Virus record (IMG/VR): IMGVR_UViG_3300044618_000096
Span: 1-35,050 of that record
DNA length: 35,050 bases
Direction: 5' to 3' (one strand)
Source: a virus
Shown: one piece after another, positions 2,227-35,050 of the stretch
How the letters are laid out: every line of letters begins with the position of its first letter
Position numbering within the stretch: position 1 is the stretch's first letter
The notes under the pieces: model-generated
The model's database searches: none
What the model was told of the DNA's origin: nothing
The model's input: only the letters and a program-made list of their open reading frames with translations
Made by a program: the position numbers and the translations under genes

Positions 2227-3453
2227 TCACCATTTGTGCATCGTTGGCAATGGAGTGAATGTCGCTGGTTTTGTGACGGCTGCACGCCTGACACCTTCGC
2301 AGGCGTAACGCAGTGCATCGATTACGTGGTTTTTCTTGTCTTCCAGCACCGGCAAGATTCTGCCGGTCAGTGGGTCTTGCTTGTAACTGTACAGCGTCAG
2401 CTCGTCAATGGTGTGGATGCACCGAGGGTGCACCACGATGTCGTAGTTCTTTAGAAACTCAATGCCTTCCTCGACCGACTTCGGGCCTTTGACGGCTGTC
2501 ATGATCTTGGGGAAGCCATTGCGTTTCATGTGGCTGATGGTCTCTGGCCTGGCTGAGTCGGCCACGATTGGCCACTTCTCGGCCTCTGGCACCTGCATGA
2601 ACAGCTCGGGTGTGTTGACGATCTCGCAGCCGACCATGTAGGCCTCGTGGTCGATGTAGAGTGTGCGACCAATGATGTGGCAGCGCACCAGTGTAGTCGG
2701 ATCGACTGAGAATCCCCAGTCTGCACCGAGCCTGTGGATTGCGTCTGGCGGTGCCTCGAAGTCCTCGACGCGCCAGTTCTTGAACACTCTGGTGTTGCTG
2801 TTTGTGAGGTAACTGCCCATCCAGACATGCTGGTATTTGTCTGGGTCGCGCCTCTTGTCGTACTCCATTTCATCGCGCAGGACAGATGGAAACCAAGGGT
2901 TGTCGGTGAAGTTGACCTTGAGGACGGTCGCATCCTTTGGCGGTGTCGGGCCACGCAGTAGGAAGTCGACAGGGTCGTTCTGCTGGCGCGGGTTCCACGT
3001 GAACCATAGCTCGGACTCTGGCTTACGGATGGTTGGCCGCAGCAGGTCGAGGCTGGTCTGGCTCAGACTTTGGGCTTCCTCCACCCAGGCGCAGTCGTAG
3101 CCCTCCAGCGACTTGATCGAGTCTGCTGTGTGATTCTGCATGCCTTGGAAGATGATCGCGCCATCGGCCTTCTTGGACTTGATGACCACATCCTGAACCT
3201 CAAAGTAAGCGCCAGCGTTCATGTCCTGAATCTTGGTCTCCAGCAGGCGCTTGACCGACTGGTTGAGTGACTTCTGGATTTCACGGACGCAGACGCTTCT
3301 GCGCTTCTGATCCATGATGTGAGCCTCGATCATCAGCTCGGCAAACATGTGGGACTTGCCCGAGCCTCGGCCACCCCAAGCGCCTTTGTATCGGCTTGGC
3401 TCCAGCAATGGCAGCGCCCACTCTGGGGTTTGGAGTTGCAGAACTTTACCCAT
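2227..3453 (-). CDS. terL: Terminase large subunit (ATPase and nuclease)
   Basis: This 408-residue protein is the DNA-packaging motor, which translocates DNA into the prohead and cuts it. Walker A is GGRGSGKS at residues 27-34 and Walker B is WVEEAQ at about 123-128, including the catalytic Glu pair. The RNase H-like nuclease acids fall at about Asp245 (GADWG), Asp299 (VADSA) and Asp379 (VIDALRY). The pattern is closest to the Terminase_3/PBSX group, and the protein is shorter than P22 gp2. The start codon lies inside the end of the small-subunit gene with an 8-bp overlap, which suggests translational coupling. Confidence 0.95.
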   Translation of the reverse strand: MGKVLQLQTPEWALPLLEPSRYKGAWGGRGSGKSHMFAELMIEAHIMDQKRRSVCVREIQKSLNQSVKRLLETKIQDMNAGAYFEVQDVVIKSKKADGAIIFQGMQNHTADSIKSLEGYDCAWVEEAQSLSQTSLDLLRPTIRKPESELWFTWNPRQQNDPVDFLLRGPTPPKDATVLKVNFTDNPWFPSVLRDEMEYDKRRDPDKYQHVWMGSYLTNSNTRVFKNWRVEDFEAPPDAIHRLGADWGFSVDPTTLVRCHIIGRTLYIDHEAYMVGCEIVNTPELFMQVPEAEKWPIVADSARPETISHMKRNGFPKIMTAVKGPKSVEEGIEFLKNYDIVVHPRCIHTIDELTLYSYKQDPLTGRILPVLEDKKNHVIDALRYACEGVRRAAVTKPATFTPLPTMHKW

Positions 3454-3886
3454 TCTTGACGATCACTCGCTCGATCTTGGCAAACTCCAGAGGCGCACCA
3501 TCTGCACCAGTCAGTTCATGCTTTTGGGTTTCAGCCCAGCGCATTTGCGTCTTGCTCCACCAAATGGCTGCGGTCGTGTCGCCTGCCATGACCTTCTGGA
3601 ATAGGGTTTTCCCTACCTGTCCGTTGGCCTTGGCTTTTCCAGACACCAGCTCGGTTGCAAAGTGCTTGCGCAGGGTTTCAACATGGATTCCATCGCGCAC
3701 CAGGACTGCGATCTGATCGATCGGGAGGCCGTATCCGCTGAGGGCTTCGACCTGTTTTCGCTCGGCATCTGTCGGCTCGAACTCAGGTCGGCCAGCGCCT
3801 GGTTGAGCACCGCCAGTTCCTGGTCGAGCACCTCCATGCTTTTTTACGACAGGTTTTTCTTCAAGTTTCGGTTTTTTCGTTGCCAT
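3446..3886 (-). CDS. terS: Terminase small subunit
   Basis: This 146-residue protein is called as the DNA-recognition subunit of terminase, mainly because it abuts and overlaps the large subunit. The first 30 residues are basic and Gly/Pro-rich. A helix-turn-helix-like segment follows at roughly 55-75 (GLPIDQIAVLVRDGIHVETL), as is usual for these proteins. The gene overlaps the end of the methyltransferase gene by 26 bp, so the two are co-transcribed. The pac site is often within or near this gene, but I could not identify it. Confidence 0.85.
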   Translation of the reverse strand: MATKKPKLEEKPVVKKHGGARPGTGGAQPGAGRPEFEPTDAERKQVEALSGYGLPIDQIAVLVRDGIHVETLRKHFATELVSGKAKANGQVGKTLFQKVMAGDTTAAIWWSKTQMRWAETQKHELTGADGAPLEFAKIERVIVKNG

Positions 3887-5204
3887 TTTTTACCTCCGCG
3901 AAAGGTTTTCCGGTTTCTGCGTGTGTTGCGATTTTGCCAGTGAAGTCCTGCCATCGCTTGACTATCACATCGACGAACTTTGGGTCGAGTTCCATCAGGC
4001 GTGCTCGACGGTTTGCTTTTTGGCAGGCAATCATGGTGCTTCCGCTTCCACCAAACAGGTCTAGGACGATCCAGCCATCCATGCTTGACCACTCGATCAT
4101 GCGCTGCACCAGTCCAACTGGCTTCATGGTTGGGTGCAAATCGCTCTTGGTTGGCCTGTCGTGGCGCACGATGGTTGTTGGCATTTGCTCTTTAATCTGC
4201 TTGAGCATGGCCACCAGCTCGTCCTTTTTCATCTTGTCGATGTCCAGATCGTCATCGATCACCGTGGTCAGCGTGAAGTCACCACAGAAGTGGTGGCCTT
4301 TGCCTTCCTTCCATCCGTACAGGATTGGCTCGTGTTTCCAGTTGAAGTCTTGGCGCGAGAGCGTTCCGCTTTGTTTCACCCAGATTAGGACTTCGGAGAG
4401 TTTCAGGCCTGCTTCGACCAGGCAGTCTGAGAAGGCTGCGCGTTCGGATTCACCGTGGGCCACGTAGATCACTGCGCCTTCGCGCATGTTCTCGAAGTAC
4501 CTGGCATAGACCGCTTGCAAAAATTTCTTGAATTCTGACTTGCTCATGTCGTCGTTCATGATCTTGCCTGCTTTGCCATCGACCGCCACGTTGTAAGGTG
4601 GGTCTGTCCAGACGAGATCAGCTTTGTCGCCATCCATGAGCTTAGCCAGATCGTCGGCCTGCGTGCTGTCACCGCACATGAGTCGGTGTTCACCCAGCAG
4701 CCAGACATCACCGCGCTGGCTTTTCGGCTGCTCTGGGATGCTTGGGACTTCGTCTTCGTCTGTGTGTCCATCAGTCGGCTCTGGTGCCATGATGGATGCG
4801 AGTTCATCTTTGCTGAATCCTGTGAGCTCCAAGTCAAATCCAAGTCCTTGCAAATCTGCCAGTTCAAGTCCGAGCATTTGGTCGTTCCATCCAGCGTTCA
4901 GCGCCAGCTTGTTGTCTGCAATGACATAGGCCTTCTTTTGTGCATCGGTCAGGTAATCTAATCGGATGCATGGGACTGATTCAAGTTTCATGCTCTTTGC
5001 CGCCATGACTCGACCGTGTCCTGCAATGATCCCCCCCCCCCCATCAATAAGCACCGGATTGGTGAATCCGAATTCCTTGATTGATGCAGCGATCTGGGCC
5101 ACTTGCGCATCCGAGTGCGTTCGACTGTTGCGTGCATAAGGAACAAGTTTGTCGATCGAGACGTTCTCAATCTTAGTTTTTGAATCGTGGGTTTTTGTGG
5201 TCAT
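3861..5204 (-). CDS. ParB-like domain fused to DNA N4/N6 methyltransferase
   Basis: This 447-residue protein has two parts. Residues 10-100 are ParB/sulfiredoxin-like, with IIAGHGR at 59-65 and ADNKL at 96-100. Residues 165-430 are an amino-methyltransferase of beta order, with motif IV DPPY at 201-204 before the SAM-binding motif FGGSGST at 384-390. DPPY indicates methylation of the exocyclic amino group of adenine or cytosine. No restriction partner is visible, so it probably protects phage DNA or marks it for packaging or replication. Residues 55-58 are four glycines encoded by an uninterrupted run of 12 G, where relatives usually have mixed residues before the IIAGHGR strand. A change of one base in the run would truncate the protein. 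Confidence 0.93.
   Translation of the reverse strand: MTTKTHDSKTKIENVSIDKLVPYARNSRTHSDAQVAQIAASIKEFGFTNPVLIDGGGGIIAGHGRVMAAKSMKLESVPCIRLDYLTDAQKKAYVIADNKLALNAGWNDQMLGLELADLQGLGFDLELTGFSKDELASIMAPEPTDGHTDEDEVPSIPEQPKSQRGDVWLLGEHRLMCGDSTQADDLAKLMDGDKADLVWTDPPYNVAVDGKAGKIMNDDMSKSEFKKFLQAVYARYFENMREGAVIYVAHGESERAAFSDCLVEAGLKLSEVLIWVKQSGTLSRQDFNWKHEPILYGWKEGKGHHFCGDFTLTTVIDDDLDIDKMKKDELVAMLKQIKEQMPTTIVRHDRPTKSDLHPTMKPVGLVQRMIEWSSMDGWIVLDLFGGSGSTMIACQKANRRARLMELDPKFVDVIVKRWQDFTGKIATHAETGKPFAEVKNGNEKTET
5031..5042 (-). repeat. 12-base homopolymer (poly-G on coding strand) in methyltransferase gene
   Basis: Twelve consecutive C on the + strand encode Gly55-Gly58 of the methyltransferase. Twelve keeps the frame. 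By my translation, 11 G leads to a stop after 13 altered residues past the glycines, and 13 G to a stop after about 17. Tracts of this length are known slipped-strand hotspots in phase-variable genes. A sequencing-length error is also possible. Confidence 0.9.
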
Positions 5205-32166: not shown

Positions 32167-33060
32167 TCATTTGGAAGCTGCTCGCTTCTGCTGCTTGTAC
32201 TGGATGACTTTCGTCATGTTGCCAGTACGAGCCGCTTCTTCTCGCAGCCGTTCAAGGGTTGAGTCCACCGCCCCAGATACTCGGCCAGTTCCTGACACGA
32301 TTCTCTCGGGTGGCGGGGCTGCCCTGCGGTTGGTAACTTTCAATTCTTTCTCCAGTTTCGCTACCGCAAAGGCAAACTTTACGGGGTCTTTGATATCGGA
32401 CAGCTCCTTTGCCTTTTTCGGGTTCTTGCCGAGCGCGTAGATGACGAGCGCAGGATTATCTGCACCTTGGAGCACCACGCCTTGCTGGGTGATGTTGAAC
32501 AACTCTTGGGCCACGGCCTCAGCGTCTTCAAAATCTTTGACTCTCAGCTCGGCTTTCGCCTTGCCATAGCCATCCAGTTTGGCTTGCCATGCCTTCTGTT
32601 GATTCATAACTTCAACTTCTTGCTTGGCATTTGACTCATCGGCTTGTCGCTTGCGCTCAAACCAATCAGCCAGTGCTGCCTCGAATTTATCAGCGTCATA
32701 GTCATGTTCTTCAAGGCTTGGCTTCTTGCCCAGCAAGACCGGCTTGGTCTCAGTCTGTGCGGTGCTTTGCAGCTTACCTTGCAGTTCACGGTTTTGCCGT
32801 TGCAATTCTCTGTTCGTCTTACGCAGCTCGCGTACCCATTCAGGCGCATGAGTCTGTTCTTCGGGAGGTGGCGCTTCCTCACCAATGGATACGATCACTT
32901 CATCGTTGTCGCCTTCGTTGTCTTCGGTGCTCTGGTCATCGTCCTGGTCGCCAGTGGATTGGTACTCGCTGGTGGTTTGCTCAGTGCTTTGGCCTTCGTC
33001 CTCAACAACGATGGTGTCATCGTCTTGGTTTTCTTCTCCTGATACTGCCTTTGTGTTCAT
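32167..33060 (-). CDS. Scaffolding protein (gp8-like)
   Basis: This 297-residue protein lies between portal and coat, as does P22 gp8. The first 65 residues are acidic (runs such as QDDDTIVVEDE and DNEGDNDEV) and are followed by a coiled coil (VRELRKTNRELQRQNRELQG) and a helical middle. The C-terminal 35 residues are basic (STLERLREEAARTGN, then YKQQKRAASK), as expected for the coat-binding end of scaffolding proteins. It guides procapsid assembly and then leaves. The ATG follows GGGG by seven bases. Confidence 0.85.
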   Translation of the reverse strand: MNTKAVSGEENQDDDTIVVEDEGQSTEQTTSEYQSTGDQDDDQSTEDNEGDNDEVIVSIGEEAPPPEEQTHAPEWVRELRKTNRELQRQNRELQGKLQSTAQTETKPVLLGKKPSLEEHDYDADKFEAALADWFERKRQADESNAKQEVEVMNQQKAWQAKLDGYGKAKAELRVKDFEDAEAVAQELFNITQQGVVLQGADNPALVIYALGKNPKKAKELSDIKDPVKFAFAVAKLEKELKVTNRRAAPPPERIVSGTGRVSGAVDSTLERLREEAARTGNMTKVIQYKQQKRAASK

Positions 33061-33134
33061 CTTCTGACCCCATCAAACTCACCCATTAGAACGGCTGGGT
33101 GGATGCCGTTTATCACATTCTCGCTCTTTTTCAT
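33057..33134 (-). CDS. 25-residue micro-ORF between portal and scaffold (copy 2)
   Basis: The same frame as at 60-137, starting in the TGA-ATG junction after the portal stop and ending in the ATGA overlap with the scaffold start. It begins MKKSENVING, with Ser4 in place of Arg. It lies in the portal-scaffold junction that is nearly identical in both passes. Function is unknown. Confidence 0.3.
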   Translation of the reverse strand: MKKSENVINGIHPAVLMGEFDGVRR

Positions 33135-35050
33135 TCACCTTACAACTGGTTGAATGATCTGGCCTTGCAAAATTTGTTGCACTGCCTCTGCATTTGTGAG
33201 CGCCATGTTCTGTGCAGTCTCGTCAACCTTGCCCAAAGTCTCCAGCGTTTGAGCGCGTTTTAGTTCTGCGCTGGCCACGGTTTCGACGGTGTCGGCTCTG
33301 GCTTTGGCTGCCTTGGCAGTTGCTTCCTCAGCTGCGGCTTGCAGGTACATGGCATTCGGGTCTTGCGGCTGGCCTTGCATTTCGGCCATGAGTTCTTCGG
33401 CTTCGTTGTCGGTTGGCTTGACCACGCCCATGCGCAGGAGCTTCTTGCGGAAGTAGGCATTGGCATCGCTGATTCCCTCGCCTTCCATGTTCATCATGGC
33501 CATTGCCGTGATCACTTGAGCTGTCTCTGGGTCTTGGGTGATCTGGAGCATTCCGGTCAGGGCGCGAACGGTTGCCTGGCGCTTGGTGCTGCTTGATGGT
33601 CCAACGTCTGCGATCACATCGAATGTGGCACTGGTCAGGTCGTTGGCCATGACCACTTCGCCAGTTTCCTGATCGATCGTTGGCTGCATCAACTCGACCA
33701 TGCCAGCCTCGCCAGTTGGCGCGATGGTCTTCATCTTGCGCTTGTCTTCGGTGTAGATGTCCTTGGCCATCGACAGCCAGATTTCACCGCATCGCTTCAT
33801 GCCTTTGGCAAAGTTGCTCATGTAGATGAAGGCTTGGCCATCGACTCGGGCTTGAATCATCTCGACGGCCTTGCCTGAGATGTTGCTGACCATCTTGTCT
33901 GCGCCAGCTGGATTGCCCAAGATGTCCTGCATGTCGGTTTCGGTGATCTGCAAGAGCGCGGCCATTGCCGGTGGGATGGCTGCCGATCTGGTGTAGGCCA
34001 CAGGACCGCTGACAGCCTGGTTGCCGTTCTGGTCTGTGATCGGGTTGATCAGCAGGTACGGATAGTCCTTGAGGTTGTCCTCGGCCCACATAACTTGGTG
34101 GCCAGCGACCTGCTCAGGCGTGAGGATTGGCTTCTCGACTGAGGACAAGGCGCTGATCTCGCCCAGCTTGGACAGCTGCATGTTCTTGAGACGCTGGGCA
34201 TCCTTGGCCAGACGCACATGGCCCATGCATCGCTCGACGTTGTCGACAAACCAGCGTTTGCCGTAGACGACCACGATTGGGATGCACTTGCCTGCGATGT
34301 AACCTGCGTCTTCAAGCACCTTGCCACCGGACATGATGTACTTGCGAACGCGCTTGGTCTTGATCCTGCGCTGGCGCACCTCAACTGTGCCGATGGCTGC
34401 CAGAGTTTCTTCCAGCATTTCGTCTTTGGCAAAGTCGGCTTGGGTGTAGCGCTCTTCCTCGCCTGTGATGGTTTGGAAGATGCGGATGGTCTCGGTTTTT
34501 TCCTCGATCTTGTAGTACTCGGCCACATAGACCACATCGGGAGTGCACCAGTCGAACTCGTACTGGTGGATGATCTTTGGCCAGTCGGTCGGGTCATCGC
34601 CCCATGTGTCTTTGTATGCCTGGCGCGTCATCGATGTGACGACAAAGCAGAACTTGGCATCGGACTTGTCTTGGCGTTTGGCACCGAGGTCAAAGAACAC
34701 CGAGCTGTCAGCGTCAAAGATTGGCTCAATGCGGATGCGTTGGCGGTCGTCCTCTGGGTCTTCCTCGTCTTCGTAGACTGTGCGCAAGCGCCAAGCACCA
34801 ATGCCGCCACCGACCGCTTCCTCGAAGGCGTTGTCGTAGGCTTCATCGGCCACCGATGCCTGCTCGTCGGCTCGGTAGAGGCCATCGCAGACCTCGGCCA
34901 GCTTGTCATTCTCAGTGCCATCTTTGGAGACGAAGTCCACCGTGATGCGATTGTTTCGGTATTCGTTGACCACTCGGATCACGGCCAGCATGATCTTGTT
35001 GACCTCGAACTTGGGTTTGTTCTCGTACTGGTCCCAGAGTGGGCCTTCCC
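33135..35050 (-). CDS. P22-like portal protein, second allele, cut by window edge
   Basis: This is the same gene as at 138-2198, met a second time, with its 5' end beyond the window (the first 48 codons and part of the next are missing). Over the shared 618 residues from MLAVIRVV onward I count about 26 amino-acid differences (about 96% identity) and no indel. Nucleotide changes are more frequent and mostly at third codon positions. Such a pattern reflects two functional alleles of diverged strains and not sequencing noise. A true duplication within one genome is less likely because both copies keep the same neighbour and junction. Confidence 0.9.
   Translation of the reverse strand, partial: EGPLWDQYENKPKFEVNKIMLAVIRVVNEYRNNRITVDFVSKDGTENDKLAEVCDGLYRADEQASVADEAYDNAFEEAVGGGIGAWRLRTVYEDEEDPEDDRQRIRIEPIFDADSSVFFDLGAKRQDKSDAKFCFVVTSMTRQAYKDTWGDDPTDWPKIIHQYEFDWCTPDVVYVAEYYKIEEKTETIRIFQTITGEEERYTQADFAKDEMLEETLAAIGTVEVRQRRIKTKRVRKYIMSGGKVLEDAGYIAGKCIPIVVVYGKRWFVDNVERCMGHVRLAKDAQRLKNMQLSKLGEISALSSVEKPILTPEQVAGHQVMWAEDNLKDYPYLLINPITDQNGNQAVSGPVAYTRSAAIPPAMAALLQITETDMQDILGNPAGADKMVSNISGKAVEMIQARVDGQAFIYMSNFAKGMKRCGEIWLSMAKDIYTEDKRKMKTIAPTGEAGMVELMQPTIDQETGEVVMANDLTSATFDVIADVGPSSSTKRQATVRALTGMLQITQDPETAQVITAMAMMNMEGEGISDANAYFRKKLLRMGVVKPTDNEAEELMAEMQGQPQDPNAMYLQAAAEEATAKAAKARADTVETVASAELKRAQTLETLGKVDETAQNMALTNAEAVQQILQGQIIQPVVR

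Follow-up and report, generated by a model that had tools for sequence, protein, structure and literature searches.

A 12-G tract as a putative on/off switch in a phage orphan DNA methyltransferase gene

A run of 12 G inside a phage orphan DNA methyltransferase gene is, in our assessment, highly likely to be a simple-sequence contingency switch, with bet-hedging as its most likely benefit. Random on/off switching is well known in bacteria and hardly described for phage enzymes, and phase variation is mostly viewed as a bacterial strategy. Judging from the sequence comparisons reported here, phage DNA methylation is very probably governed by this locus as a hypermutable contingency locus, with in-frame (ON) and frameshifted (OFF) states, and the tract is no assembly fluke; the variation between these states among near-identical relatives strongly suggests a random switch for the marking of viral DNA. 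If this is true, one burst would hold virions of differing modification, chance would partly decide which restricting strains a phage can infect, and a consensus phage genome or methylome would leave out either the OFF or the ON fraction.

The tract and the gene that carries it

The window, i.e. the whole stretch of DNA that was analysed (35,050 bases), is the viral metagenome record IMGVR_UViG_3300044618_000096 of a tailed phage. Profiled genes include those for the portal, the large and small terminase subunits, the ParB-methyltransferase and a primase/helicase, and further genes encode a Sak4-like annealing protein, a Cas4-domain exonuclease, a helicase, an endolysin, a DNA transfer protein, and head and connector proteins. 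Positions 1-2053 and 32998-35050 represent the same region (the portal gene), 92.3% identical in a gapless alignment. The contig apparently wraps around a genome of ~33.0 kb, circular or permuted, and joins two strain variants, which would make the window record a population composite. The features of the locus are listed here, from the tract outwards.

5031..5042, minus strand: G12 tract (C12 on the plus strand), codons 55-58, four glycines; 12 G is the ON length; putative slippage switch
3861..5204, minus strand: gene for a ParB-N / N6-N4 DNA methyltransferase fusion, 447 aa, PHROG 498 (Pfam N6_N4_Mtase 1.7e-29; phrog_498 2.7e-171)
4956..5174, minus strand: ParB-N-like domain, residues 11-83 (Pfam ParB_N and AlphaFold model)
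5010..5021, minus strand: GHGR motif, residues 62-65, directly 3' of the tract (alignment A1)
3960..4619, minus strand: beta-class methyltransferase domain, residues 196-415, missing from frameshifted alleles
4593..4604, minus strand: catalytic motif IV DPPY, residues 201-204, invariant in alignment A1
4623..4637, minus strand: loop MDGDK, residues 190-194, tract-free here and a second poly-G switch position in many relatives
3446..3886, minus strand: terminase small subunit, next gene downstream (phrog_309 9e-13)
2227..3453, minus strand: terminase large subunit (PHROG profile match)

As the original prediction had stated, the homopolymer at 5031-5042 is an uninterrupted run of 12 G, in frame with the 447-aa ORF, that encodes Gly55-58, and the sequence IIAGHGR comes straight after it. 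Elsewhere in the window, G or C runs reach 5 bases at most. GGG accounts for 3.2% of the glycine codons in the genes of the window, and four in a row would be expected by chance at ~1e-6 per Gly4 site. Among relatives chosen by protein similarity, not by tract, G or C runs of 9 or more bases were counted 16 times within 97.8 kb of methyltransferase gene vs once in 328 kb outside it, a large contrast whose p value (~8e-10) is optimistic, as the 16 runs include some from near-identical relatives.

Tract length sets the frame of the 447-aa ORF, as in a contingency locus. The further claim that a one-base change leads to an early stop was borne out by computed translations, in which losing two or one G, or gaining one or two, leaves products of 73, 71, 74 and 72 aa, respectively; the stop lies 13-16 codons past the tract and the methyltransferase domain is wholly lost. 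The only sites for internal re-initiation after the tract are weak and AGGA-like, including one upstream of Met67, and OFF alleles could give some product via transcriptional or ribosomal slippage or via re-initiation at Met67.

The C-terminal half of the protein matches PF01555 (N6_N4_Mtase, 1.7e-29), carries an FGGSG motif (FxGxG is conserved in alignment A1), and has a fold like those of the beta-class enzymes M.BceJIV, CcrM and M1.HpyAVI. The N-terminal half has strong matches to PHROG ParB families and matches ParB 4umk at 3e-4, with a PF02195 (ParB_N) score of 24.5 bits, just under the 26.3 cut-off. In an AlphaFold model of the 447-aa protein (mean pLDDT 81), Gly55-58 form a hairpin turn of the ParB-like domain, between its strands 51-53 and 58-61, and both poly-G sites, i.e. 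the tract and the loop before motif IV, map to loops. In the family alignment, four variable residues make up the turn, with five glycines in one relative (L043), so the protein tolerates glycines at the tract site.

The gene is flanked by a primase/helicase gene upstream and the terminase genes downstream, and no cognate restriction gene was recognized beside it among the neighbors profiled, intervening small ORFs aside. The terminase genes follow it immediately in the window, MW202867 and Streptococcus phage Javan213 alike, and we know of no role for the ParB-N half in modification. Both points favor a reading in which the switch is real and its main purpose is an effect of the ParB-methyltransferase on packaging, phage gene timing or host expression. 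This alternative, to which we assign a minor though appreciable probability, overlaps with the contingency switch proposed here and differs in the benefit only; it is countered by the general view of orphan phage methyltransferases as anti-restriction devices, at least as PMC7468147 relates it from the works that it cites.

Length variation at the tract site

A scan for runs of at least 8 G just upstream of ATHATYGCNGGNCAYGG returned 47 viral contigs. When these were pooled with the relatives collected earlier, the tract site (site 1) showed 24 ON and 18 OFF alleles with lengths of G8-G14, counted over distinct contigs that are not fully independent, every state being that of a metagenome consensus. 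Most alleles are of the types GAY-Gn-ATC (n = 10-13), GAY-Gn-A-ATC (n = 10, 11, 14) and GACGC-Gn-C-ATC (n = 8-10). Beyond the tract, the methyltransferase frame stays open in OFF alleles, a second lesion is almost never present, and the intact downstream frame leaves these alleles restorable, as in a contingency locus. Frame breaks at site 1 were found in none of 166 tract-free alleles (Fisher p ~9e-15 vs tract-bearing alleles), made up of 51 protein-selected relatives, with two 50-bp-repeat alleles set aside, and 115 loci retrieved with a tract-blind DNA pattern. In the tract-blind sample, the tract was absent from 115 of 117 loci, and throughout the fetched family repeat devices account for almost all frame breaks. 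The fetched isolate phages had been chosen for split or unannotated methyltransferases, and several that were considered as OFF alleles (Javan476, Javan492, SL25, Bphi-R1888, Pmp13 and others) were rejected as their methyltransferase genes have no G tract; L107, which matched the scan pattern, was dropped because its gene is not a methyltransferase.

At site 1, ON alleles are more frequent than the one third that neutral drift would give (p = 0.0016), which fits a gene whose OFF state is tolerated and whose ON state is selected at times. Under neutral decay, the methyltransferase would be dispensable, the tract a drifting accident and the OFF alleles pseudogenes; the number of OFF alleles would be in keeping with this, as would the missing tract in the nearest relatives. 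The excess of ON alleles argues against it, however, as do the open frames downstream of OFF tracts with hardly any second lesion, the presence of three length-changing devices in one gene, and the rarity of G runs outside it, and we give this explanation very little credence.

The idea of a switch at the tract is supported by lengths that vary at the exact site between close relatives, by the frequency of off-frame alleles and by the open frame downstream. The check named in the original prediction, a comparison of the tract across related phages, thus favors it. A condition listed there as contrary evidence does also hold for the nearest relatives (L002-L005; protein 94-97% identical), which have no tract and carry interrupted Gly codons, e.g. 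GGT GAT GGT GGA. This absence shows that the presumed switch is gained and lost, and tract-bearing phages may still switch. The G-tract pattern found no site 1 tract in 84,980 prokaryote species genomes, so the site 1 device looks phage-borne. L123, which is closely related to the window phage, has a second G11 run elsewhere (L123:12291-12301), possibly another switch.

Other devices in the gene family and near-identical pairs

In a sister lineage (~70% identical), the site of the tract is occupied by a 50-bp unit between direct repeats of 21-25 nt. One and the same sequence of 21-25 nt encodes GHGR and, 50 bp further downstream and in another frame, SLPVMVA; a coding repeat that gives both IIAGHGR and SLPVMVA in this manner is itself unusual. 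Because 50 is not a multiple of 3, tandem duplication of the unit turns the gene OFF, and the distinct alleles comprised 24 two-copy ON and 6 three-copy OFF forms. Direct-repeat identity is bimodal, at 18-28 nt in the device lineage and at most 7 nt in relatives with a similar protein; MW202867 (Manatee Spring) carries a repeat of 22 nt, and further example loci are L015:2535-2650, L024:3177-3302 and L025:1191-1314. The near-complete phage contig 3300032322_000681 both opens (start of L145) and closes (end of L147) at this 50-bp device, as though the assembly had been unable to settle on a repeat copy number.

A second poly-G position (site 2) lies just before motif IV (e.g. LMGGGLAD..TDPPYN) in at least 120 viral stretches; examples are L020:3537, L060:3561 and L215:4541. 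Among the matches listed, site 2 tracts of G8-G15 occur in very diverse phages and about one third are off frame, with 71 ON and 32 OFF of 110 distinct loci, a few of these frame calls resting on weak upstream matches. Here too, the ON share among the matches listed is above the neutral expectation of 1/3 (p = 2e-13). Streptococcus phage Javan213 of S. equinus Sb05 (L311) has an ON tract of G8 at site 2, and a Methylobacillus MAG has an OFF tract of G10. A Nitrosomonadales MAG contig (L189:4984-4993) has a third poly-G position in its methyltransferase gene, with G10 in frame.

A FastTree phylogeny built from the methyltransferase half requires a minimum of 44 changes of device state, a rough count given the short domain, repeat-selected sampling and recombination; by this tree, the devices do not look like the product of a single origin. 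We lean slightly towards the reading that lineages independently built mechanically different switches (a G tract in the ParB hairpin, another ahead of motif IV, and the 50-bp repeat unit), with the family being selected for switchability and for bet-hedging methylation against opposite restriction regimes. A gene family with several kinds of device would be a natural setting in which to test for selection on switchability itself, which is an open question in the field.

Length differences were also observed directly between near-identical genomes. Seven contig pairs, aligned over 4-10 kb at 98-99.9% identity, differ at the switch, five of the seven without any other indel; over their ~53 kb in total, seven indels fall at the switch and four elsewhere. 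The tract is the only indel between L112 (G11, OFF) and L124 (G12, ON; 6,871 bp at 99.7%) and between L248 (G10, ON) and L314 (G11, OFF; 10,036 bp at 99.0%), and the 50-bp unit is the only one between L137 (OFF) and L149 (ON; 8,932 bp at 99.4%). L298 and L358 form another OFF/ON pair. The pairs L116/L123 (site 1), L268/L310 and L348/L351 (both site 2) are OFF/OFF, with lengths two apart that flank the ON length, hinting that OFF may be favored in some populations. L134 and L139, from the same sample, had been considered as ON/OFF sisters and were dropped, being merely 71-90% identical.

These data bear on two further explanations. If all true tracts were in frame, the off-frame lengths would be miscounted homopolymers from sequencing or assembly; runs of 11-14 G are error-prone in short-read assembly, and some contigs do break at the tract, with L103 ending in G19 (this contig end and that of L109 were left unscored) and L109 and L007 starting there. 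OFF alleles are, however, also found at only G8, where short reads are reliable (L089 and L118 at site 1, and seven at site 2 among the matches listed), a 50-bp duplication is impossible as a homopolymer error, and the switch is the single indel in pairs of 7-10 kb. This objection carries much less weight for the G8 alleles and the 50-bp unit, and we regard error as a very improbable source of the variation. The start of L007 (L007:1-23) is a chimeric break at the homopolymer; its gene is 100% identical to that of the window, and unrelated sequence begins exactly at the G tract.

Long G runs can also cause slippage during expression, and slippage by RNA polymerase or the ribosome would let every genome make a steady mix of full-length and truncated protein, with DNA length changes being secondary. 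Such slippage would explain the persistence of OFF genomes, but length polymorphism is present in the DNA itself and the 50-bp repeat device cannot work by homopolymer slippage, which makes this account improbable.

Proposed mechanism and known systems

Returning to the contingency switch, we infer that Gs are gained and lost when strands slip as the phage DNA is replicated, slipped-strand mispairing being the simplest account for poly-G, while the 50-bp unit would change by slippage or by recombination between its direct repeats. Tracts of 12 or 12+3n G would keep the ParB-methyltransferase in frame (ON), and other lengths would give a product of ~71-74 aa (OFF); with the downstream coding sequence intact, a later slip could restore ON. 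A phage population would in this way come to hold a mix of methylating and non-methylating genomes, in which ON genomes would be shielded from restriction of unmodified DNA, and OFF genomes may be kept through escape from modification-dependent (type IV) restriction or from the cost of the enzyme. Mixed methylation of virions and an anti-restriction benefit, as originally proposed, are plausible.

No description of poly-G phase variation in a phage methyltransferase was found in the literature searched. A 2026 review of prokaryotic methyltransferases mentions phage-encoded ones and, in the passages located, names no phase-variable case among them (PMC13076061), and a 2025 review treats phase variation in Campylobacter phages as exceptional (PMC11959909). 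In a 2020 study of cryoconite phages, orphan methyltransferases ranked first in frequency among the genes with a known function in variable islands (PMC7468147).

The window gene shares its family, its motifs and its terminase-adjacent position with the phage orphan methyltransferases of PHROG 498, most of which, unlike the window, have no tract at site 1, as the tract-blind sample indicates. Members of PHROG 498 are, to our knowledge, not known as phase-variable. Frame-changing simple repeats inside a DNA methyltransferase gene are also a feature of bacterial phase-variable methyltransferases (type III mod genes, phasevarions), a poly-G type III methyltransferase of H. pylori being one example (PMC12003011). 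Those genes belong to chromosomal restriction-modification systems of bacteria, whereas the gene described here encodes a ParB-methyltransferase fusion, is an orphan carried by a phage and has no recognized nuclease gene next to it.

The closest parallel in phages comes from Campylobacter Fletchervirus, whose receptor-binding proteins vary in phase through poly-G tracts (Sorensen et al. 2021, Cell Rep 35:109214, as cited in PMC11868660 and PMC11959909). In both cases a hypermutable coding poly-G would toggle a protein ON or OFF and diversify the phage population; in Fletchervirus the genes are those of receptor-binding proteins and switching was demonstrated experimentally, whereas here the gene encodes a DNA methyltransferase and the switch is known from sequence. 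Unlike Fletchervirus, relatives of the methyltransferase have two further devices, poly-G at site 2 and the 50-bp repeat unit. The abstract of the Fletchervirus study reportedly places poly-G tracts in more than 100 phage genera, and methyltransferases may be among the genes concerned.
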